The position numbers were made by a program, and so were the translations under genes. A stretch of DNA of 20,406 nt from the IMG/VR virus record IMGVR_UViG_3300049846_001041, positions 1 to 20,406 of that record. One strand, given 5' to 3'. Each line of letters opens with the position of its first letter. Position 1 is the first letter of the stretch. The notes under the pieces are model-generated. The model was not told the origin of the DNA. It did no database searches and saw only the letters and a program-made list of their open reading frames with translations. Below are positions 1,966 to 19,736 of this stretch, one piece after another. Origin of the DNA: a virus.

Positions 1966-3324
1966 CTACTTATTTATTATTTCGAGACTACCATAATCCG
2001 GGCCCGCTTTTGCTTTAGTAACGAACCCGCCCCCTTCTAATATTTCTCGTATTCCTGAGAAACACTTTTTAGAATCATTAAAACTGAAATCAAATAAAAC
2101 AGAATCGTATGTATATAAAATCATTTTAGTTTCATACTGCTTTAAAAAATCGTTTATTAAACATATTTTTTTCAAATTAATTTCGGTTTCTAAACATTGT
2201 ATGAAATAGTTTAATAATTTCTGTGCTGATAACCTAGGGAAATTCTTTTTATATAATCGTCTACCGGATATTGGTGAAACAATATAACCATTCCTATTCC
2301 AAATATCCCATAATTCAACAGCATAATCATTAACTCGCTTTAAAAATTCTATATGTACATATTCAGGTTGGATACCACCATATAATTGTCTAAAACTTAT
2401 TTGTTTTGATTCATCATATTCAGATTCAGTTAGTATATCTTTATTAAAGTATTTTCTACCCAAATATTCATGCACAGCTATTTTGTCCGGAAATTTATAA
2501 TTAACCAAGAATCCCAATATACGTAAATGATAAGATTCGAAATCAAACTCTAACATTGCTCCTTTTTCAAACCTACTTTTAAATATATTACGTACACCAG
2601 AATCTTTACTTAGAGCTGCAAAATTAATTGTATTAAATCTATTAGAAGGTCGCCCGGTTGTCGTAAATATATTATACTGCGAATATATTAGTTCAGAATC
2701 TAAATCTACATTAATAGACGTATCTATACTTTTCATTAGACGCTCTGTCTTTACACACAACCCATTCTTTTCTATTTCGGATAACCCATATAATATAATA
2801 TTACTGTAGTAGTCACAAGCTCGATCTTCTTTTGAAACCATAAATATCAAATTCAATAATATCGGCTTTATAATATCAAAATATTCAATCCATTTAACTA
2901 GGGGTATTAGATTATTAATACGTTTGTATTTCGGGTATAAATCTTTAAAAACGCCAAACAATTTGTTTTCTGGCAGTAGTAGTTTAGTACCTGAATCCAA
3001 ATACTGTATTACTTCCAAATCAATTGCATTCGTAATATTAAATCTATTATTTATATCTTTATAATTAAAAATATATTTTCTTTTCTTATTATTATAGCTT
3101 ATATCTTTAATTATAAAGCTACTACTATCAAAAATTAATTCCGAATGATCGAAGGTTAGGATGTAATCTTCCTTTAAGTCTATTATATGCACCCAAAGCA
3201 AACTAATTGATTTTAGTGCCGGGTGCATAAATTCATTAATAAAAATCGGAAATATGAGTAACTCCGAACTAACTAGTTTTTGTCGGATATTATCATAATC
3301 TGATTGCGAATCCACAATCACCAT
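1966..3324 (-). CDS. Family A DNA polymerase, short form without a recognisable exonuclease
   Basis: This 452-aa protein carries the Pol I palm/fingers motifs in order: TTTGRPSN (221-228), matching TATGRLSS of Pol I; motif A EFDFESYHLRIL with the metal-binding D261; motif B KQISFRQLYGG (307-317) with the conserved Lys, Phe, Tyr and Gly; and motif C YTYDSV with D407. Two positions are odd. The residue aligned with the steric gate Glu710 of Pol I is H266, and the usual His-Asp of motif C is Tyr-Asp. The first 200 residues show no clear DEDD exonuclease motifs; at most they are a degenerate exonuclease remnant. T4 uses a family B enzyme, so this is a different replicase type. It follows the tail genes with only a 39-base gap and no shared promoter element, so it may be co-transcribed with them. 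Template-directed synthesis is well supported; fidelity and role are inferred. Confidence 0.85.
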   Translation of the reverse strand: MVIVDSQSDYDNIRQKLVSSELLIFPIFINEFMHPALKSISLLWVHIIDLKEDYILTFDHSELIFDSSSFIIKDISYNNKKRKYIFNYKDINNRFNITNAIDLEVIQYLDSGTKLLLPENKLFGVFKDLYPKYKRINNLIPLVKWIEYFDIIKPILLNLIFMVSKEDRACDYYSNIILYGLSEIEKNGLCVKTERLMKSIDTSINVDLDSELIYSQYNIFTTTGRPSNRFNTINFAALSKDSGVRNIFKSRFEKGAMLEFDFESYHLRILGFLVNYKFPDKIAVHEYLGRKYFNKDILTESEYDESKQISFRQLYGGIQPEYVHIEFLKRVNDYAVELWDIWNRNGYIVSPISGRRLYKKNFPRLSAQKLLNYFIQCLETEINLKKICLINDFLKQYETKMILYTYDSVLFDFSFNDSKKCFSGIREILEGGGFVTKAKAGPDYGSLEIINK

Positions 3325-6535: not shown

Positions 6536-9500
6536 TTAACAATAATTAAATTTATTTACACAATTAAACGCATCATAATTCTTATAATTTATTTGCTGTT
6601 CTCCTACGATAAATATATTCATACTAACTTTAATGATTTGCGGTACTTCAGCCACACAATCGTCATTTTCAATATTAATTTCCCATGGATATTCAGTATC
6701 AATATCAAATGTCAATGATGTAATATGACCTACATCTTTTATATAATCACCAAGCTGGAATCGAATAAATGGAGAAATCATTAAACCATTACCTGAAATA
6801 TCAGGTATTGTCATTTTAGATAACGCATTTAATTTTTTATACATACCCGGTAATTCACCCCTACTCAATGCAGGGACTATAAAATCTAATGATATATCTC
6901 TAGTAACATTGTTAAATGTTTTTAGAGGGCTCGGCCTTCCTATATAATTTATATCAGTATAATTAGGAGACCAACGGTCTGAGAAGCTAGAAATGTAAGA
7001 TCTAAATTGGTATGTTTGGTTTTCACGTAAATCGGTAAAAATCAATTTAACGAAATCCTTACCTAATGCCGATTCGGATTCCATTAATGGATCAACTACA
7101 TCTTTAGATTTATATGGATCGGCATTCGAATTTCTAACCCAATTAAATTCATCCAACACCTTTTTAGAATCATTATCGTTATCAGATGCCTTTACGTGTG
7201 TTCTACCATTTATGCGGGTAGATTTTGACCCGGACTCACGTAAATTGGCATACATTAAATTACTACCAGGTATAATATTATTTTCTCCATGATTCGGTAA
7301 TATTCCTCCCTTAGGTAATAATTCTTGATCAGTATCGTACGGTGTAATTATTTTGTTAGTTTCTTCAGAACTAATCTTGAATAAATTATTATCTGATAGA
7401 TATTTCTCACCGTCTTTATTGGTATATTTGTGTAGAGTTACAGCTGTGTTATTTTCCGTATCCCCAGGTGTCCCTATTTCTGAATGTCCATTAAATGGAG
7501 CTATCTTCAAATACTTAGATGAATTGGGAGTAATAGTCGGTATTCCAGGTATTCCTACTTTATCAATAAAGATTTTCGTGTCCTTTTTCCAAATATCTTT
7601 TTGTAATATGTATTGATTTTGATCATACGTAGTTGAGCCTACCGTGTCGCCATGATTCTTTCTAACATTACTTAAACCATGTTTAGTCAACGAATTAATA
7701 CTTATACTACCTTTATCCAATATAGCATCGGCTCTAGTCATAAAATGACTAAAAGCTAAATTAGCTAATTGATTTCCTATTAAAAGTTTACCGTATGATG
7801 AATTATATAAACTTAACGGAAAACTAGTTAAATAAGTTGCGGCGCTTAATGCTTGCGCAGCTTCGGGAGATAATTGATTAACTATTCCAGTAGCTAATGC
7901 GCCTATTGATGGTCCTCCTAAAATAGGTATAGATGTACTAGTAACATCAATAACATTTGAATATTGAGGCGGTGGTATAAATTTAGCACCTACATTAACA
8001 CTACCTAATATAGGATTAGTATCGGCATATGTAGGTGTAGTCGACCCTTGATTAATATTTGGATTAGGTTGAACTACATTAATGCTACCTTGATTAATAT
8101 TTGGATTCGGTACTGTTACATTAATACTACCTTGGTTAATGTTAGGATTTGGTACTATAACATTCGCGCTACCTTGATTAATATTTGGATTCGGTATATT
8201 GATAGTACTAGATCCTTGATTGATATTCGGATTCGGAACATTAACGGTACTAGATCCTTGGTTAATATTAGGATTAGGGACTATTATATTACTTGACCCT
8301 TGATCAATATTCGGGTTCGGTATTGTTATATTACTTCTACCTTGATCTATTATCGGATCCGGCAACGTAATATTAGCTTGGCCCTGTTCTATTGTAGGAT
8401 TTGGCTCTACAATATTAACGCTACCTTGATTAATTTTAGGATTGGGTATTGATATATTACTACTTCCTTGATTAATGTCAGGGTCAGGATTTACAATTTC
8501 ACTACTTCCTTGATTTATAACCGGATTAGGGATCGTAATATTAACATTGCCTTGTTCTATTTTAGGATTCGGAATATCAATATCAGTGCTTCCTTGTATA
8601 ATATCCGGATTGGATTCTTTTATTATACTTGACCCTTGGTTAATTTTAGGATTAGGAACTATAATTTCAGTACCACCTTGGTTAATATCAGGATCAGGTT
8701 CTTTTATATTAGATTCACCTTGTTTAATAATCGGATTCGGAATGTTTATTTTAGTAGATCCTTGTACAATATCTGGATCCGGTTTTTGTATTTGACTTTC
8801 GCCTTGATTAATTTCCGGATTCGGAATGTTTATTTTAGATGTGCCTTGTTCTATATCAGGATTTGATATTGATATCTCAACACTACCTTGATTAATGTTA
8901 GGATTCGAAATGCTTATATCAACACTACCTTGATTAATAGTAGGTTCAATGTAAGTAATATTTGATTCCCCTTGTTTAATTTTGGGGTCTGGGATATTAA
9001 TGTCGACACTACCTTGATTAATAATAGGTTCAGGTTTAACAATCTCAGCTTCACCTTGTTTAATAATCGGATTCGGTATTTCAATCTTAGCTCTTCCCTG
9101 TTCTATATTAGGATTGGACTTCTTTATATCAGCAGTACCTTGATCAATTATAGGATTAGGTATAATAGGATCTGTTTCTCCTTGTTTTATATCAACATCC
9201 GGTGGTATAATATCAATATAACCATGATTAATTTTAGGATTTGGTTTAACAATATCAGACTGCCCTTGTTTAATTTTAGGGTCTGGTATTTCAATCTCAC
9301 TACTTCCTTGTTCAATCGTAGGATCCGATAAAATTATTTTTATATCGCCTTGTTTTGGTTTAAATTTCCAATCAATTAATTTAGTACCGCCCTGTTCAAT
9401 ATCTATATTAGGCTTTATAATATTAGAAGACCCATGATCAGGTGAATACTTATATGGCTTTAATGTAGTACTTCCTTGTTTCAAACTAGAAACGGGTAAA

Positions 9501-9661
9501 ACGGTTGATATTATAGATGAAACGGACGACCCCTCATAAATTGCATTCCCGTCTTCATTTCCATGTATACCTTGTTTAGGAATAAATTTATTGTTGATAT
9601 CAATATTGGGAGATTGCTTATCCCAACTAACTCTTAAATTACTATTTAATGTTACGGCCAT
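6536..9661 (-). CDS. Baseplate protein with a long 14-residue repeat array
   Basis: This 1041-aa protein has three parts. Residues 1-60 form a variable lead-in. Residues 61-550 are 35 consecutive 14-residue units without a single insertion or deletion, consensus NQGSxxIxIPNPxI, with Gly at position 3 almost invariant and an Asn/Asp-Pro near the end. Residues 551-1041 are non-repetitive. The last 176 residues have the feel of a conserved myoviral baseplate/tube-cap domain (FRSYISSFSDRW, IGRPSPLKTF, RDISLDF, FQLGDYI, TEYPWEI). Such a short, Gly-anchored period suggests a beta-solenoid or extended fibre. The gene overlaps the tape measure stop by one base and is followed at once by the LysM gene, so it is probably a baseplate or tube-initiator part. 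The function of the repeats is unknown. Position and C-terminal domain support the structural call; the repeats themselves are certain. Confidence 0.72.
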   Translation of the reverse strand: MAVTLNSNLRVSWDKQSPNIDINNKFIPKQGIHGNEDGNAIYEGSSVSSIISTVLPVSSLKQGSTTLKPYKYSPDHGSSNIIKPNIDIEQGGTKLIDWKFKPKQGDIKIILSDPTIEQGSSEIEIPDPKIKQGQSDIVKPNPKINHGYIDIIPPDVDIKQGETDPIIPNPIIDQGTADIKKSNPNIEQGRAKIEIPNPIIKQGEAEIVKPEPIINQGSVDINIPDPKIKQGESNITYIEPTINQGSVDISISNPNINQGSVEISISNPDIEQGTSKINIPNPEINQGESQIQKPDPDIVQGSTKINIPNPIIKQGESNIKEPDPDINQGGTEIIVPNPKINQGSSIIKESNPDIIQGSTDIDIPNPKIEQGNVNITIPNPVINQGSSEIVNPDPDINQGSSNISIPNPKINQGSVNIVEPNPTIEQGQANITLPDPIIDQGRSNITIPNPNIDQGSSNIIVPNPNINQGSSTVNVPNPNINQGSSTINIPNPNINQGSANVIVPNPNINQGSINVTVPNPNINQGSINVVQPNPNINQGSTTPTYADTNPILGSVNVGAKFIPPPQYSNVIDVTSTSIPILGGPSIGALATGIVNQLSPEAAQALSAATYLTSFPLSLYNSSYGKLLIGNQLANLAFSHFMTRADAILDKGSISINSLTKHGLSNVRKNHGDTVGSTTYDQNQYILQKDIWKKDTKIFIDKVGIPGIPTITPNSSKYLKIAPFNGHSEIGTPGDTENNTAVTLHKYTNKDGEKYLSDNNLFKISSEETNKIITPYDTDQELLPKGGILPNHGENNIIPGSNLMYANLRESGSKSTRINGRTHVKASDNDNDSKKVLDEFNWVRNSNADPYKSKDVVDPLMESESALGKDFVKLIFTDLRENQTYQFRSYISSFSDRWSPNYTDINYIGRPSPLKTFNNVTRDISLDFIVPALSRGELPGMYKKLNALSKMTIPDISGNGLMISPFIRFQLGDYIKDVGHITSLTFDIDTEYPWEINIENDDCVAEVPQIIKVSMNIFIVGEQQINYKNYDAFNCVNKFNYC
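8012..9481 (-). repeat. 35 x 42-bp in-frame coding repeats
   Basis: The units encode the 14-residue repeat of the baseplate protein. Copies near the protein N-terminus (higher coordinates) are diverged, while seven copies at 8054-8347 are nearly uniform (PNPNI-NQGS type). This suggests recent expansion or homogenisation at that end. Synonymous differences remain even between identical peptide units. Confidence 0.93.
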
Positions 9662-13075: not shown

Positions 13076-13345
13076 TTATGGTGATACTATCTTACCGGAT
13101 GCGATATCATCAACTAATTTTTTGAATTTAGGATCAGAATTATATTTCTTATCTAATTTAGCTTTCAAATCTTTTTCCAATTCAGCTGCTGATTTTCCCG
13201 CTATTGATTTTGGTTTCTTTTTAAGTAAAAAATCTACTAGCGCGCCTACTAAGTATCCAATTATACCACCGGCCATACCTTCTTTTATTGACAATTCAGC
13301 TGATAGTTCTTCCTTAATAATTTTACGTAGTTCTGATTTTTTCAT
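13076..13345 (-). CDS. Small protein with tag-like N-terminus and a glycine-rich hydrophobic segment
   Basis: This 89-aa protein starts MKKSELRKIIKEEL, which matches the first 14 residues of the 267-aa protein at 18912-19715 (M-K-K-x-(D/E)-L-R-K-(L/I)-I-K-E-E). The rest of the two proteins is unrelated. (I/L)xE sites end at E12 and E22; T4 prohead protease gp21 cuts after such sites. After the second site comes a glycine-rich hydrophobic stretch (about 23-41), then a basic, helical C-terminus with many Lys. It lies immediately before the tape measure gene, and its ATG overlaps the preceding gene's stop (ATGA). It could be an internal virion protein, a tail component or a membrane-active peptide. 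I do not assign a function. Confidence 0.65.
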   Translation of the reverse strand: MKKSELRKIIKEELSAELSIKEGMAGGIIGYLVGALVDFLLKKKPKSIAGKSAAELEKDLKAKLDKKYNSDPKFKKLVDDIASGKIVSP

Positions 13346-14471: not shown

Positions 14472-14482
14472 CAGACGTGGTT

Positions 14483-14494
14483 TAATATAAATAT
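14483..14494 (-). promoter_or_regulatory. Phage promoter-like element for the main tail operon
   Basis: The minus strand reads ATATTTATATTA, 11 bases before the ATG at 14471 and just downstream of a strong hairpin terminator. This layout makes a promoter role the simplest explanation. Confidence 0.65.
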
Positions 14495-14770: not shown

Positions 14771-14788
14771 GGGCCTATAATTAGGCCC
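14771..14788 (-). terminator. Hairpin at the end of the gp26-type gene
   Basis: A 7-bp GC-rich stem (GGGCCTA 14771-14777 with TAGGCCC 14782-14788) has a 4-base loop. The stop codon of the gp26-type gene lies in the loop/stem. No U-run follows on the minus strand, so it may be a pause, RNA-processing or stability element rather than an intrinsic terminator. Confidence 0.45.
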
Positions 14789-15659
14789 TAGGCCAAAAAA
14801 AGGAAACCGTCATTGGCATTCCCATATGATCGTCTTCATGACCACAACTAGAACATTCAAATGGAAATTCCATTTTCACGTCTGGTACTACTTCTTGAAT
14901 ATATTTACGTAAAGCAAGTGAGTCTCTAGAAAGCATAGTATCTACAAATTTACGTATAGTTGATATATCACTACTGCCATCTACTGAGGTTATAATATAT
15001 TTTAATCTAGTTGTCATTTCAGGATCTATCCCTGAAACTTTATTTAATTTACGAAGTCCTTTTAATTCATTTTCAATAGCTTTTTCATCAGCTGATGTCA
15101 AACATTTAAACGTTACATTGGTACCATTGGATGGTAATGTAAATGTAAATTCATTAATACCTTCATTATATTTTCCTTCAGCTACGTGCTTTTCAGGAAA
15201 TGCCGTTAAATCAATAATATTATTAGATTTAGCACCGCATGCCGGGCAAGTAATTTCCACTTCATAATCTTTACCATAAGCTAAAATTCTACTTGCTATT
15301 AGTACCGCATTCTTGTCCCCCACCAATAAATCATCATAATTTATATTACTAACAATTAGTGATTGCAATAATTTATCAATTACTACTCCGGACTTAATTA
15401 AATTAGCTGATGTTAAAATATCTTCTTCCTTAGCGGTCATATATTTTATATCCAATTTACCGGTACTTAACGGACTATTAACATCATACAATACTCCTTT
15501 GGATGGTAGACTAACTACCTCAGTATGGAATTTGTATGGTGTAGAAGCCGTTTCCCCTAGATGCGGGTCTGGCAACATTTCTTTTTTTACTCCGGAATAT
15601 TTAGCTGCTATTGCTTGTTTTAATTCGTCGTCTGATAAAACTTGGTTCTTTTCTGTCAT
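14781..15659 (-). CDS. T4 gp26-like baseplate hub / tail assembly protein
   Basis: This 292-aa protein resembles the T4 baseplate protein family that includes gp26. The N-terminus has YKFHTEVVSLPSKGVLY (about 42-58), then the block KLDIKYMTAKEEDILTSANLIKSG (68-91). Two Cys pairs, CPAC (138-141) and CSSC (269-272), form a likely zinc ribbon split across the chain. The central part (190-255) is helical. In T4, gp26 is needed for hub assembly but is not an obvious part of the mature baseplate, so an assembly-factor role is likely. The gene has its own promoter-like element 14 bases upstream and no Shine-Dalgarno sequence. A hairpin overlaps its stop codon. The family call is confident at the level of pattern; the precise role is inferred. 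Confidence 0.75.
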   Translation of the reverse strand: MTEKNQVLSDDELKQAIAAKYSGVKKEMLPDPHLGETASTPYKFHTEVVSLPSKGVLYDVNSPLSTGKLDIKYMTAKEEDILTSANLIKSGVVIDKLLQSLIVSNINYDDLLVGDKNAVLIASRILAYGKDYEVEITCPACGAKSNNIIDLTAFPEKHVAEGKYNEGINEFTFTLPSNGTNVTFKCLTSADEKAIENELKGLRKLNKVSGIDPEMTTRLKYIITSVDGSSDISTIRKFVDTMLSRDSLALRKYIQEVVPDVKMEFPFECSSCGHEDDHMGMPMTVSFFWPRA

Positions 15660-15700: not shown

Positions 15701-16441
15701 TTATAATGCTTTTTTAATCGTTTTTTCATAATCTTTACTGCTCGTGCCCGATGTCTTGTCTTTCAAGTCTATATAATCAATTTCAGGAATAGCTAAAATC
15801 ACATTCAAATTTTTACCTTTATGAACAGTTTCATATTCATGATCATACCCGACTAAATGCAGTTCCGGATTAAAATAAAAATCACGGTTGTTTGTCTTAG
15901 CCGCCAATACATAATTAGCAAATTCTTTTGCTATATTAGATTTAACGGTCCATGATTGTAATAATTTATGTGGCTTATATTGAAATTTCTTTTTTGTGTA
16001 TACATAGAACGGGTCACCACCTATATACTTTAATTGCCAATCCTCAGACGAAGTCTTCTTAAAAAAAATCTTTAATTTTGCCATACTTACGTCAGTACCC
16101 CTATATGCAACCGGATGCTTTTTAGTATTAATTGAAAATCTAGGGTCTCGTTTTTTCAGATAATCCAATATTGGCATAACTTCTTGTATGCTTTTTACAT
16201 CACTAGTATCTGAGGATGTTGTCCAACTTCCCAATACTCGATCTATAATATATTTTAAAAACGCCTTAGATGTCGCTATTGGGTATTTTTTAAAAAAACT
16301 TGATAATGGTTTATCGCCCATTTTATTATATGTTTCGAATGCACTCCAAGACAAGTGATCGAATATGGTTTCACGTTCCCATAGTCTCTGTGCAGCCTTA
16401 AGGCCTAATAATTTAACGGGGTCAAATTCTGAGTATTTCAT
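15701..16441 (-). CDS. Probable ADP-ribosyltransferase
   Basis: This 246-aa protein shows what look like the three landmarks of arginine-type (R-S-E) ADP-ribosyltransferases: YRGT with R114; SWTVKSNIAKEFA with S163-W-T165 followed by the usual helix; and a downstream acidic pair. For the last, EYE (202-204) and DYE (237-239) are both candidates. The second fits the spacing better but has Asp in place of the first Glu. These enzymes transfer ADP-ribose from NAD to host proteins; T4 Alt, ModA and ModB act on host RNA polymerase and translation proteins. The N-terminal 100 residues are helical and unassigned. The gene has its own promoter-like element only one base before the ATG and follows a terminator. 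Because the third motif is ambiguous, this could be an inactive or diverged member. No signal peptide is present. Confidence 0.5.
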   Translation of the reverse strand: MKYSEFDPVKLLGLKAAQRLWERETIFDHLSWSAFETYNKMGDKPLSSFFKKYPIATSKAFLKYIIDRVLGSWTTSSDTSDVKSIQEVMPILDYLKKRDPRFSINTKKHPVAYRGTDVSMAKLKIFFKKTSSEDWQLKYIGGDPFYVYTKKKFQYKPHKLLQSWTVKSNIAKEFANYVLAAKTNNRDFYFNPELHLVGYDHEYETVHKGKNLNVILAIPEIDYIDLKDKTSGTSSKDYEKTIKKAL

Positions 16442-16519: not shown

Positions 16520-17194
16520 TTATTTACCGCGGCCTTTTTTAGCTGTGGTCGTAGAGGTAATACCCGGTACCGGATCAGTTGTAGTAGTTGCGCTAGTACA
16601 ATTATACCGTGTCCATGGTGCTGATGGAATCTGAACGCTTTTTGCGACTGCAACAGGTTTGCCATTTGCATCCCAACAGTTATTAAATACTGCGCTAAGT
16701 TGATGCACAGCTCCATCAGTAAGAATACCAGCACCAAATCCATAATCAGAAGGATATGCTGAATTATTTGCATCAATGTAGTTAAACTGATATTTATTAT
16801 ACGGAATAAAGTATTCTACTCCAGTACGTGCATTATAAAATGTCATAACGCCACCGGCAAATGTTCTGTATCTTTTTACATATCCATTTTCATATACCGG
16901 ATTTCCAATTGCGTCTACTTCATATCCTGTTCCCGAACTATAGAATCCTTGGCAATTGCCATTCGAATCCATTCCATAGAAATTCCAAGTAGGATGAGCA
17001 TCTAGGATCGTTCCAATACTTTCTTGTCCTTCCCATCCTTGGCCTTCTACCCAAAGGTTAGGAACTTTACCGAAGTATTGATAAATACCTAGAATAAAAT
17101 ATGGTACTGTTGTTGGAGCTTTCAAGATTTTTACCTTAAGTCTCGAAGCTTCTGGTGTGATTTCTACATCGAAATCTGTTGAATTGTAAGTCAT
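16520..17194 (-). CDS. Aromatic-rich protein of unknown function, paired with the lysyl-oxidase-like gene
   Basis: I do not recognise this 224-aa protein. It is rich in Tyr, Phe, Trp, Gly and Asn (for example FNYIDANNSAYPSDYGFG at about 136-153), which suggests a compact beta-rich fold such as a fibre tip, decoration or adhesin. The last 30 residues switch to a Thr-rich linker and a basic tail, AKKGRGK. There is no signal peptide, although its upstream neighbour is secreted. It starts 11 bases after the stop of the lysyl-oxidase-like gene and ends before a terminator, so the two are almost certainly one transcript. Three Cys are present. Position between tail tube and assembly genes suggests a virion protein. 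Confidence 0.65.
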   Translation of the reverse strand: MTYNSTDFDVEITPEASRLKVKILKAPTTVPYFILGIYQYFGKVPNLWVEGQGWEGQESIGTILDAHPTWNFYGMDSNGNCQGFYSSGTGYEVDAIGNPVYENGYVKRYRTFAGGVMTFYNARTGVEYFIPYNKYQFNYIDANNSAYPSDYGFGAGILTDGAVHQLSAVFNNCWDANGKPVAVAKSVQIPSAPWTRYNCTSATTTTDPVPGITSTTTAKKGRGK

Positions 17195-17205: not shown

Positions 17206-18189
17206 TTATTTTACTTGTGATTTTTTTGTGGTAAATGTAGGGCTACCTTCTCCCGCTTCATTAATTGGTGTTATATACCAACGATAGAATTTATTTTTAA
17301 CTGCCCACGTGTCGACGAAAATAGGTTCTTCAACAATTTGTGGTGAATAAGGAGTATCAAATTCCGCAGTTCCTTGAACTAATTTAGCTTGAACTTTATA
17401 TCTACATGCCGTAGGTGATGGATTCCAAGTTATTGTTCTATTATTTACTTGTATATTGGTGACAGCTTGAGGCGGATATATTGTAGGCGCACTTCCTAAA
17501 TTAGGACCTATATATACTGTATATCCTTGAATATATAACGGACACCATATTTCATCAGGATAATTATTTAATCCTTGATCCACCCAACTAGGAATATTAA
17601 CTTTTAAGTGCAATGTATAATATCCATTAGGTAAACTATCAATAATTATATGGTTTCCTTCTGTGTCTGAATTATATGGATCACAGAACCCCGGTGTCAA
17701 TCTTGCTTTTCCTTCAAGTCCTAATGTTGGGGTGGTATTATACATCCATTGTGGATATCCACCATATGGTGCCATACCTGTTAATTGACAATCATTTGGA
17801 TAAAATTTACTATTATCAGATAAGGCGTATCCTATTTTTCTACCCGAAGCTATTACATTACTCTTACAATCTATTAGAGTAGCTACAATAAAGTCTTTTA
17901 TATGCCAATGACCATGGTTAATATCATAATAATAACCAGAGTCTGGGTTTGGTTCGCCGAAATTAGCAACCGTAGTTCCCATGTTTGCTATTAAAGTGCC
18001 GAAAGCAAGGACTTTATGTTCACCTAAGGGTTGATCATTTTCATCCCAAATCCATCGATCTTCAATATAAGTTGATGATGCGTTAGTTCCATTTTCAGTG
18101 AAACATTTATCTATATAAAGATCAGGTTGCGCATTAATTTTATTTAAAGAAAAAACTAATAAAAACGCTATTAATAATACTTTTTTCAT
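17206..18189 (-). CDS. Secreted lysyl-oxidase-like copper amine oxidase with C-terminal Fn3-like domain
   Basis: Residues 1-20 are a signal peptide (MKK, hydrophobic core, cleavage likely after INA before Gln). Residues 22-225 align by eye with the lysyl oxidase catalytic domain. NHGHWH supplies three His (92, 94, 96) at the copper site, matching CHQHYH of human LOX. SGRKIGYALSD places K118 on LOX Lys320, and GFCDPYNSD places Y172 on Tyr355, the two residues that form the lysyl tyrosylquinone cofactor. LPNGYYTLHLKVN matches the closing strand region. The K-Y spacing is 54 residues against 35 in LOX, so there is an insertion. Residues 238-325 look like a fibronectin type III domain. The family oxidises amine groups of lysines, making reactive aldehydes and hydrogen peroxide. 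The signal peptide implies export, unusual in a tail cluster; the 'NAQ' cleavage style suggests a Bacteroidota source. The substrate is unknown. Confidence 0.8.
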   Translation of the reverse strand: MKKVLLIAFLLVFSLNKINAQPDLYIDKCFTENGTNASSTYIEDRWIWDENDQPLGEHKVLAFGTLIANMGTTVANFGEPNPDSGYYYDINHGHWHIKDFIVATLIDCKSNVIASGRKIGYALSDNSKFYPNDCQLTGMAPYGGYPQWMYNTTPTLGLEGKARLTPGFCDPYNSDTEGNHIIIDSLPNGYYTLHLKVNIPSWVDQGLNNYPDEIWCPLYIQGYTVYIGPNLGSAPTIYPPQAVTNIQVNNRTITWNPSPTACRYKVQAKLVQGTAEFDTPYSPQIVEEPIFVDTWAVKNKFYRWYITPINEAGEGSPTFTTKKSQVK

Positions 18190-18207
18190 TCCAAATATAA
18201 CATACTT

Positions 18208-18219
18208 TATTATAAATAT
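18208..18219 (-). promoter_or_regulatory. Phage promoter-like element before the lysyl-oxidase-like gene
   Basis: The minus strand reads ATATTTATAATA, 18 bases before the ATG at 18189 and downstream of the tail tube terminator. Confidence 0.65.
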
Positions 18220-18275: not shown

Positions 18276-18311
18276 TGAAAAGAAAAAGCCCGAGAAAAAA
18301 AATTCCCGGGC
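18276..18311 (-). terminator. Intrinsic terminator after the tail tube gene
   Basis: An 8-bp stem (18288-18295 with 18304-18311, one G-U pair) has a U-rich 8-base loop and is followed on the minus strand by TTTTTCTTTTC. This is a strong rho-independent terminator, fitting a gene made in large amounts. Confidence 0.85.
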
Positions 18312-18337
18312 CTATAATATAAAAAATCAATATAAAA

Positions 18338-18826
18338 TTAGAAGTTCAATAAGCAATAGTCAACTTTAATTGTTAAATTTATTTCTACTTGAGTATCTAC
18401 TGCCCAATCCATTTCTCCGAATTGTGCAGACTTAATAAATGCACCCTTTAATACCCATTCTTCAACTATATCACCTACTGGGCCTAATACTTCGAATTGC
18501 AAATCTTTCTTATAGAAATCTGCATATCCGTCACGTCCCGTTGCCGATTCATGAGAAGTTCTAATCCACTCCATAACTGCCTGAGCACCTGATGGCACAA
18601 TTGGATCATATAGAGTCATATTAAAATCACCCCATCTTCCCTTGCCTTTCAAGGTACGGACGATATTAATATGATCTAATGGAACTTCCCCGAATTCAAT
18701 TTGAGGACGATTTATTTTTTTGATTATGTATGACGGAACGCCATCCATATACATAATGAATCTATTCTGTACTTTAGGCTCGAACTTAGTGAAAAATATA
18801 TCACTATCTGGAATTAATGTTGCCAT
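18338..18826 (-). CDS. Tail tube protein, T4 gp19 family
   Basis: This 162-aa protein, the size of T4 gp19 (163 aa), polymerises into the inner tail tube. It begins with a short N-terminal arm (FFTKFEPKVQNRFIMYMDGVPSYIIKKINRP), continues through a RTLKGKGRWGDFNMTLYDP block, and ends with a strand-rich segment AQFGEMDWAVDTQVEINLTIKVDYCLL. These are the hallmarks of the gp19/phage tail tube family. The conserved VPSY.IK and the 'W-x-D-x-x-x-x-L-Y-D-P' region are especially recognisable. Its transcript has a 37-base A-rich leader without a Shine-Dalgarno sequence, a promoter-like element upstream and a strong terminator downstream, consistent with a separately controlled, abundant structural protein. 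No tail sheath gene is visible; it would lie outside the window. Confidence 0.92.
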   Translation of the reverse strand: MATLIPDSDIFFTKFEPKVQNRFIMYMDGVPSYIIKKINRPQIEFGEVPLDHINIVRTLKGKGRWGDFNMTLYDPIVPSGAQAVMEWIRTSHESATGRDGYADFYKKDLQFEVLGPVGDIVEEWVLKGAFIKSAQFGEMDWAVDTQVEINLTIKVDYCLLNF

Positions 18827-18863
18827 AATGTTTTTATTTTAATTTGTTTTTGGTTTCTTACTT

Positions 18864-18875
18864 TATTATAAATAT
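18864..18875 (-). promoter_or_regulatory. Phage promoter-like element for the tail tube gene
   Basis: The minus strand reads ATATTTATAATA, 37 bases before the ATG at 18826, leaving an A-rich leader (AAACCAAAAACAAATTAAAA) typical of Bacteroidota-style initiation without Shine-Dalgarno. Confidence 0.65.
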
Positions 18876-18911: not shown

Positions 18912-19715
18912 TTAGGCCTGAAAAGTATTTTCATTACCATTATCATACTCTACAAATTCATAATCCGAACCAGCTGGCTCACTACCATATTTTTTCTTAA
19001 AATATCTAGTGATTGCATCTGTTCTATTATGTACATTTTTATTATCATATGCAAGAACCACGATATTATTATATGATCCTTTTGTTAGGAGAGTACAATT
19101 ATCAGCAATAGATTTATTTTTCAATAACTGAGATATTTTTTTCTTATTATCTTCTATTTTTACATTAGATGTATTTTCTTTTAATTTATTTCCCTCCTTT
19201 AAATCAATCATATTAGCTATGTCGGTAGGTATTTTAGTCCAATCTGCTTGATCCATATACTTATCCGCATACTCAGGACCTTTATCATCATCCACTGCTA
19301 ATAATAATAGTTCACGTTGATCCGGTGTTAATTTCTTCCATTTATTAACTGTATCAGTATTTTCTTTTAACCCATTACCCTTCATAAAAGTAAGAGCAAC
19401 TTTAAGTGCGCTCTTAATATCAGGTAATCTATCCTTAGTTAATTGTTTCGCTTTACTAGATAAAATCCAATTGGGGCCTTTGTCATCACCATAATATAAA
19501 AATGTTACTGGTGGTTTCGTTCTATCTCCTGACTTATATAATGAAGGTATTTTAACTCCACTACCATACATGGAATCCATTGCCCATTCATATCCCGGAA
19601 TCTTAGTATTTAATAGTTGTTTGGTAAATTTAGCTTCATCTTCTTGGAAGGTAGTTTCCTCGAATATCTTAATTATTTCTTCTTTTATTAATTTTCGTAG
19701 ATCTATTTTCTTCAT
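18912..19715 (-). CDS. Unknown protein with tag-like N-terminus and (I/L)xE sites
   Basis: I do not recognise the body of this 267-aa protein. Its N-terminus, MKKIDLRKLIKEE, matches that of the 89-aa protein at 13076-13345. Potential prohead-protease sites of the (I/L)xE type end at E12, E118, E174 and E180. A short motif GNxLKENT occurs twice (113-120 and 175-182), framing a middle helical segment (TPDQRELLLLAVDDDKGPEYADKY). The C-terminal 70 residues (198-267) form an alpha/beta unit (CTLLTKGSYNNIVVLAYDN). There is no signal peptide or membrane helix. It stands just upstream of the tail tube gene and has its own promoter-like element 9 bases before the ATG. The layout could mean a packaged, proteolytically matured internal protein; this is inference. 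Confidence 0.65.
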   Translation of the reverse strand: MKKIDLRKLIKEEIIKIFEETTFQEDEAKFTKQLLNTKIPGYEWAMDSMYGSGVKIPSLYKSGDRTKPPVTFLYYGDDKGPNWILSSKAKQLTKDRLPDIKSALKVALTFMKGNGLKENTDTVNKWKKLTPDQRELLLLAVDDDKGPEYADKYMDQADWTKIPTDIANMIDLKEGNKLKENTSNVKIEDNKKKISQLLKNKSIADNCTLLTKGSYNNIVVLAYDNKNVHNRTDAITRYFKKKYGSEPAGSDYEFVEYDNGNENTFQA

Positions 19716-19724
19716 ATAATAATT

Positions 19725-19736
19725 TATTATAAATAT
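19725..19736 (-). promoter_or_regulatory. Phage promoter-like element before the 267-aa gene
   Basis: The minus strand reads ATATTTATAATA, 9 bases before the ATG at 19715. It overlaps the last base of the endonuclease stop codon, so the endonuclease gene is cleanly outside this transcription unit. Confidence 0.6.

Follow-up and report, generated by a model that had tools for sequence, protein, structure and literature searches.

Organization of the locus

The window, meaning the whole stretch of DNA that was analysed, is a 20.4-kb virus record (20,406 nucleotides), and the gene considered here is known from this one metagenomic contig. It encodes a member of the lysyl oxidase family, copper enzymes that cross-link collagen in animals. 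The neighbouring genes are those of a T4-like myovirus and specify a gp19 tail tube, a PF12322 T4 baseplate protein, a gp53-like wedge, a gp32 SSB and a family A polymerase-like protein. Three genes, of which the lysyl oxidase gene is one, occupy the slot between the tail tube and baseplate hub genes:

18338..18826, minus strand: gp19-like tail tube gene, bordering the slot on the left; phrog_4542; 61% identity to the Mel-JY01 tube
17206..18189, minus strand: lysyl-oxidase-family gene, 327 aa, ATG start; matched by PF01186 and by a bacterial-only profile
16520..17194, minus strand: orphan gene, 224 aa, Lys-rich C-terminus; starts 11 nt past the lysyl oxidase stop
15701..16441, minus strand: third cargo gene (246 aa), flanked by the orphan and hub genes; no assigned function, no relatives found
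14781..15659, minus strand: baseplate hub gene, bordering the slot on the right; PF12322 T4_baseplate, E 5e-17; phrog_150

No relatives of the orphan were found in searches that included Pfam and PHROG. Its product ends in TTTAKKGRGK, and the gene has both the highest GC in the window (0.388) and the most deviant codon use. The product of 15701-16441 resembles ADP-ribosyltransferases by eye (YRG, SWT, VHKGKNL), a likeness without database support.

Domain architecture and family membership

The protein can be divided into a predicted signal peptide, a catalytic domain that carries the cofactor residues, and a C-terminal domain:

18130..18189, minus strand: signal peptide, residues 1-20, predicted A-Q cleavage; hydrophobic core, site placed by eye
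17581..18117, minus strand: lysyl oxidase catalytic domain, residues 25-203; from Pfam and a profile alignment to LOXL2 5ZE3
17902..17916, minus strand: HGHWH copper-binding motif, H92, H94 and H96; invariant, equivalent to LOXL2 His626/628/630
17836..17838, minus strand: K118, equivalent of the LTQ-forming lysine; invariant, equivalent to LOXL2 Lys653
17674..17676, minus strand: Y172, equivalent of the LTQ-forming tyrosine, in a G-x-x-D-x-Y motif; invariant, equivalent to LOXL2 Tyr689
17209..17481, minus strand: C-terminal domain, Fn3/Ig-like by eye; no significant family, no T9SS sorting tail

The Pfam profile PF01186 (Lysyl_oxidase) matches residues 25-203 with 32 bits (E 1.3e-7), above its curated cut-off of 20.4 bits. 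This is the sole Pfam family in the protein, and a six-frame search of the whole record with PF01186 returned a single match, the ORF at 17206-18189. The original prediction had assigned the product to this family and proposed the PF01186 search as a check, and the search upholds the assignment. Against a profile of 12 bacterial lysyl oxidase domains, from which the phage protein was left out, the phage protein scores 47.5 bits and the best of 5,000 shuffles 7.6, so the match is not due to chance. The only solved structure matched is human LOXL2 in its precursor state (5ZE3; E 3e-28 and 5e-27, collinear over the domain), through profiles that had the phage protein among their sequences. With bacterial homologues in the profile, the catalytic domain aligns to residues 232-412 of the 5ZE3 chain sequence. 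Membership of the phage protein in the lysyl oxidase family is well supported by these comparisons.

The N-terminus reads MKKVLLIAFLLVFSLNKINA followed by QPDLYID, with a mean Kyte-Doolittle value of 3.2 in the hydrophobic core and an A-Q cleavage site judged by eye. These features agree with the signal peptide claimed earlier, and the segment is predicted to be a Sec-type, Bacteroidota-style signal peptide ending at A-Q. The Fn3-like C-terminal domain of the original prediction holds as a resemblance by eye; it is not backed by database matches, since Pfam gives none for this domain and a collagen XX chain is reached only at E 0.67.

Cofactor residues and structure models

The cofactor residues are intact. 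H92, H94 and H96 are read in the context NHGHWHI, K118 in GRKIG and Y172 in CDPYNSD, so that all five residues named beforehand are present in the ORF. In an alignment of the phage protein with seven bacterial enzymes they fall on invariant columns, which include the three His, the Lys of GxKxG, C134, G167, D170 and Y172. The proposed equivalence of the Lys/Tyr pair to that of a human enzyme is also supported, K118 and Y172 aligning with LOXL2 Lys653 and Tyr689. In the alignment with the bacterial enzymes, neither the conserved Cys of GFCL nor the QW motif is present in the phage protein. It has an Arg where LOXL2 has His652, a position at which bacterial members also differ. In LOXL2, the three copper His are essential for LTQ and His623 and His652 have a partial effect, mutation of His652 lowering LTQ by more than half (PMC9694262). 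Overall, the phage protein has in common with human LOXL2 and LOX the three copper His and the Lys/Tyr pair of LTQ, arranged in identical order within one collinear domain, but has no SRCR domains, propeptide or equivalents of His623/His652, and lacks most of the disulphides.

AlphaFold models of the phage protein were built on thin alignments and are of low confidence (pLDDT 48.1 and 44.7). A Foldseek search with the first model (pLDDT 48.1) found nothing. With the second (pLDDT 44.7), LOXL2 came out on top of the 999 chains in the VIA-align list (Z 7.6 across 150 residues, a value within the range of common arrangements), ahead of the next chain at Z 6.2; this ranking, based on a model, is supportive of the lysyl oxidase fold. 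It had been suggested that a model with the His, Lys and Tyr far apart would speak against the assignment. However, the Lys and Tyr are 16.6 Å apart in the solved LOXL2 precursor 5ZE3 (PMC9694262), and such a distance is therefore not a valid test.

A lysyl oxidase fold may also be kept as a structural or binding protein that is homologous to the amine oxidases but not itself catalytic. The missing Cys and QW motifs, the fused Fn3-like domain, the low confidence of the models and the long branch of the phage protein (3.6) would all fit such a protein. We nevertheless regard this explanation as unlikely, because the three His, the Lys, the Tyr and the G-x-x-D-x-Y motif have been retained at about 25-30% identity, and residues free of selection would have drifted.

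A variable slot in the tail cluster

The phage tail tube is 61% identical to that of Microcystis phage Mel-JY01, 55% to that of Flavobacterium phage immuto and 39% to that of Rhodothermus phage RM378. The tail modules of immuto and Mel-JY01 have the same tail sheath, tube and downstream order, but neither genome has a lysyl oxidase. For a broader comparison, 80 related viral tail loci were collected, 66 of which have tube and hub on one piece. The tube-hub gap in these 66 contigs is mostly 0-125 bp, and the two closest relatives, whose tail tubes are 81% identical, have 342 bp; in the phage with the lysyl oxidase it measures 2,678 bp and consists of the three-gene block of lysyl oxidase, orphan and third gene. 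A lysyl oxidase is present in none of the 80 loci and in none of the 45 whole records behind them, many of which are fragments.

Five relatives have gaps of 709-825 bp, filled by a GH108 endolysin, a Peptidase M15 or a GDSL hydrolase (one member per pair was scanned, and the partner was judged from close similarity). The tube-hub slot in related phages is a cargo hotspot, often for envelope-active enzymes, and the lysyl oxidase gene is cargo, given that the slot is elsewhere filled with other, often envelope-active, enzyme genes. Across the set of loci L085, L076, L102, L133, L132, L095, L096, L099 and L100, the slot holds a GH108 lysin, M15 peptidase or GDSL hydrolase, or else an HNH nuclease or a very large protein (about 2,900 aa).

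A standard phage tail gene was considered and rejected, as the lysyl oxidase has no PHROG and is missing from the related tail clusters; the original prediction had likewise not regarded it as one. Its placement in a phage tail gene cluster stands as far as position between tail genes is concerned, but the gene is variable-slot cargo and not a component of the tail module. Codon use and GC3 of the lysyl oxidase gene match those of the phage.

Upstream motif and expression

The lysyl oxidase gene is preceded by a 14-mer that recurs in the window, and a hairpin lies farther upstream:

18206..18219, minus strand: ATATTTATAATAAA, promoter-like motif and shared 14-mer, 17 nt before the lysyl oxidase ATG
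18862-18875, minus strand: ATATTTATAATAAA upstream of the tail tube gene
19723-19736, minus strand: ATATTTATAATAAA upstream of the 18912 gene
14481-14494, minus strand: ATATTTATAATAAA with 1 mismatch, upstream of the 14166 gene
18286..18313, minus strand: terminator-like hairpin between the tail tube gene and the cargo block, 11-bp stem and T tail

Allowing at most one mismatch, ATATTTATAATAAA has 4 sites in the window where 0.57 are expected, and none of 100 shuffles reaches 4. All four lie on the minus strand and precede genes by 8-36 nt. In Flavobacterium phage immuto, the same motif stands before the tail sheath, the tail tube and two other genes. We read ATATTTATAATAAA as a promoter-like element of the structural genes of this phage lineage, one that is not private to the cargo, since it precedes structural genes as well as the lysyl oxidase. 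Expression of the lysyl oxidase late in infection is probable, because its gene and the tail tube gene have this promoter-like motif in common. A sigma-70 promoter scan of the region stayed at chance level, and the number of terminator-like sites in the region is not above that of shuffles.

The shared motif, the location in a tail cluster and the adjacent orphan, which begins 11 nt downstream and ends in TTTAKKGRGK, could together suggest a virion component that cross-links or stabilizes tail proteins, perhaps acting on the Lys-rich product of 16520-17194. It is conceivable that the orphan product is a partner or substrate of the lysyl oxidase. However, the predicted Sec-type signal peptide would lead the enzyme away from cytoplasmic virion assembly, lysyl oxidase is missing from all related tail clusters, and the slot is otherwise occupied by lysins and other cargo. 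Stabilization of the virion, one of the roles put forward in the original prediction, is less likely for a protein with an export signal, and we consider a virion component improbable.

Distribution in viruses and cells

No other viral copy of the gene was found. A tblastn search of 50,697 phage records, with the phage protein and two bacterial lysyl oxidases as queries, returned none; nor did a scan of viral contigs by protein, alignment and HxHxH codon pattern, or a search of plasmids. The whole genomes of immuto, Mel-JY01 and RM378 are without a lysyl oxidase, and searches of PHROGs and of the literature found no phage lysyl oxidase. The collections are finite and codon-pattern scans miss divergent copies, so these results mean that none was found, not that none exists. 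Within that reach, the earlier statement that no such enzyme is known as a standard phage tail-cluster gene agrees with the phage records, PHROGs and the searched literature, which yielded no precedent. A family survey published in 2015 deals with animal, other eukaryotic, bacterial and archaeal members and says nothing of viruses or phages (PMC4448552).

The roles of lysyl oxidases in prokaryotes have been described as unclear (PMC4448552, PMC6452851). A scan of genome contigs with the single phage protein gave no match, and the bacterial entry points came from an HGHWHF codon pattern. PF01186 occurs in 4 of the 395 genomes sampled around a Bacteroidetes MAG within one phylum, in 33 of 296 sampled around an Actinomycetota MAG and, for two families belonging to the former phylum, in 8 of 197 and 100 of 114 genomes. 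The Bacteroidota family of genome G056 has lysyl oxidase in 100 of 114 genomes, in up to three copies, versus about 1% of the phylum sample, and the enzyme is apparently a near-core secreted one in that family.

Secreted Bacteroidota lysyl oxidases (for example at loci L009, L014, L022 and L026) share with the phage protein PF01186, HGHWH, G-x-K, D-x-Y and a predicted Sec signal ending at A-Q, together with an N-terminal DLxVD motif and a short spacing before the copper site. They differ in length, at about 800-1,100 aa compared with 327 aa and an Fn3-like C-terminus in the phage protein, and identity is about 26-31%. The two homologues tested carry a type A T9SS sorting domain (TIGR04183) at the C-terminus, which the phage protein lacks. 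In the tree, the phage protein sits on a long branch (3.6) without firm placement.

A single metagenomic contig with no second phage carrier might reflect an assembly chimera or a host gene wrongly joined to phage sequence. Phage genes flank the lysyl oxidase on both sides, though, with a phage promoter-like motif directly upstream and phage-like codon use, and most bacterial homologues, at only about 25-30% identity, are larger and have several domains, in some cases with a T9SS tail. An artefact of this kind is very improbable.

Proposed role

The reading that we favour, with moderate confidence, is that a T4-like phage, which probably infects Bacteroidota, has taken up as cargo a late-expressed, exported lysyl oxidase that oxidizes amines of the host envelope. 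The virus would probably use it as a secreted accessory enzyme on the host cell surface. A Bacteroidota host is probable from the tail tube relatives, which include Flavobacterium and Rhodothermus phages, but is not certain, because the closest tail tube match comes from a phage recorded on Microcystis.

The gene would have been acquired as accessory cargo in the variable tube-hub slot and be expressed, probably late, from the promoter-like motif that it has in common with the tail tube gene. The signal peptide would export the product; with a Sec signal alone and no T9SS tail, the enzyme is expected in the periplasm and, once the cell lyses, outside it. In either place H92, H94 and H96 would bind copper, and Cu(II) and O2 would convert K118 and Y172 into LTQ. 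The LTQ could then oxidize primary amines in the host envelope, on lysine side chains or elsewhere, yielding aldehydes, hydrogen peroxide and ammonia. Lysine oxidation, crosslinking and peroxide production by the phage enzyme would follow from the chemistry of the family.

Host-envelope amines as substrate, and the benefit to the phage, are our guesses. The aldehydes might form cross-links between envelope proteins or modify a receptor, with exclusion of rival phages or changed lysis as examples of the outcome. The specific proposal that quinone-cofactor chemistry serves the phage as a weapon or shield, the late-exported enzyme covalently cross-linking lysines of host surface proteins and so locking receptors against rival phages or altering lysis, is doubtful as it stands.

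The prokaryotic lysyl oxidase of Haloterrigena turkmenica is an active amine oxidase with a signal peptide and a relaxed specificity that extends to aminoglycosides and polymyxin (PMC6452851). It is encoded by a cellular archaeal gene, not a phage-borne one, and is compared here by description (PMC6452851). Such specificity would be consistent with a secreted amine oxidase that benefits the infected host by nitrogen scavenging or detoxification of amine antibiotics and does not modify the envelope. Late-type expression, however, leaves little time for a benefit to the host, and no transport or metabolic genes adjoin the lysyl oxidase; we give this alternative very little weight.

A phage lysyl oxidase with intact cofactor residues would, within the reach of the searches, be the first viral one. 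If cross-linking of host surface proteins is indeed its role, this would be the first LTQ enzyme encoded by a virus and would add the cross-linking of proteins through amine oxidation to the strategies of phages. A phage-borne copy also suggests a route for transfer of lysyl oxidase genes between lineages, which bears on the debated origin of the animal enzyme. In addition, the enzyme is small and compact, in a setting where its benefit (host-surface modification during infection) is directly testable.

Other features of the window

Between the tape measure and wedge genes, positions 6536-9661 (minus strand) encode a 1041-aa protein made up mostly of repeats of about 14 residues of the NPNINQGSSxI type. 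Two proteins, at 13076-13345 and 18912-19715 (minus strand), start with MKKxxLRKxIKEE, which we take to resemble the capsid-targeting N-termini of T4-like internal proteins. A 452-aa DNA polymerase A-like protein (1966-3324, minus strand), below the Pfam cut-off, is possibly one part of a split polymerase; a small DNA polymerase is likewise annotated in the relative RM378.
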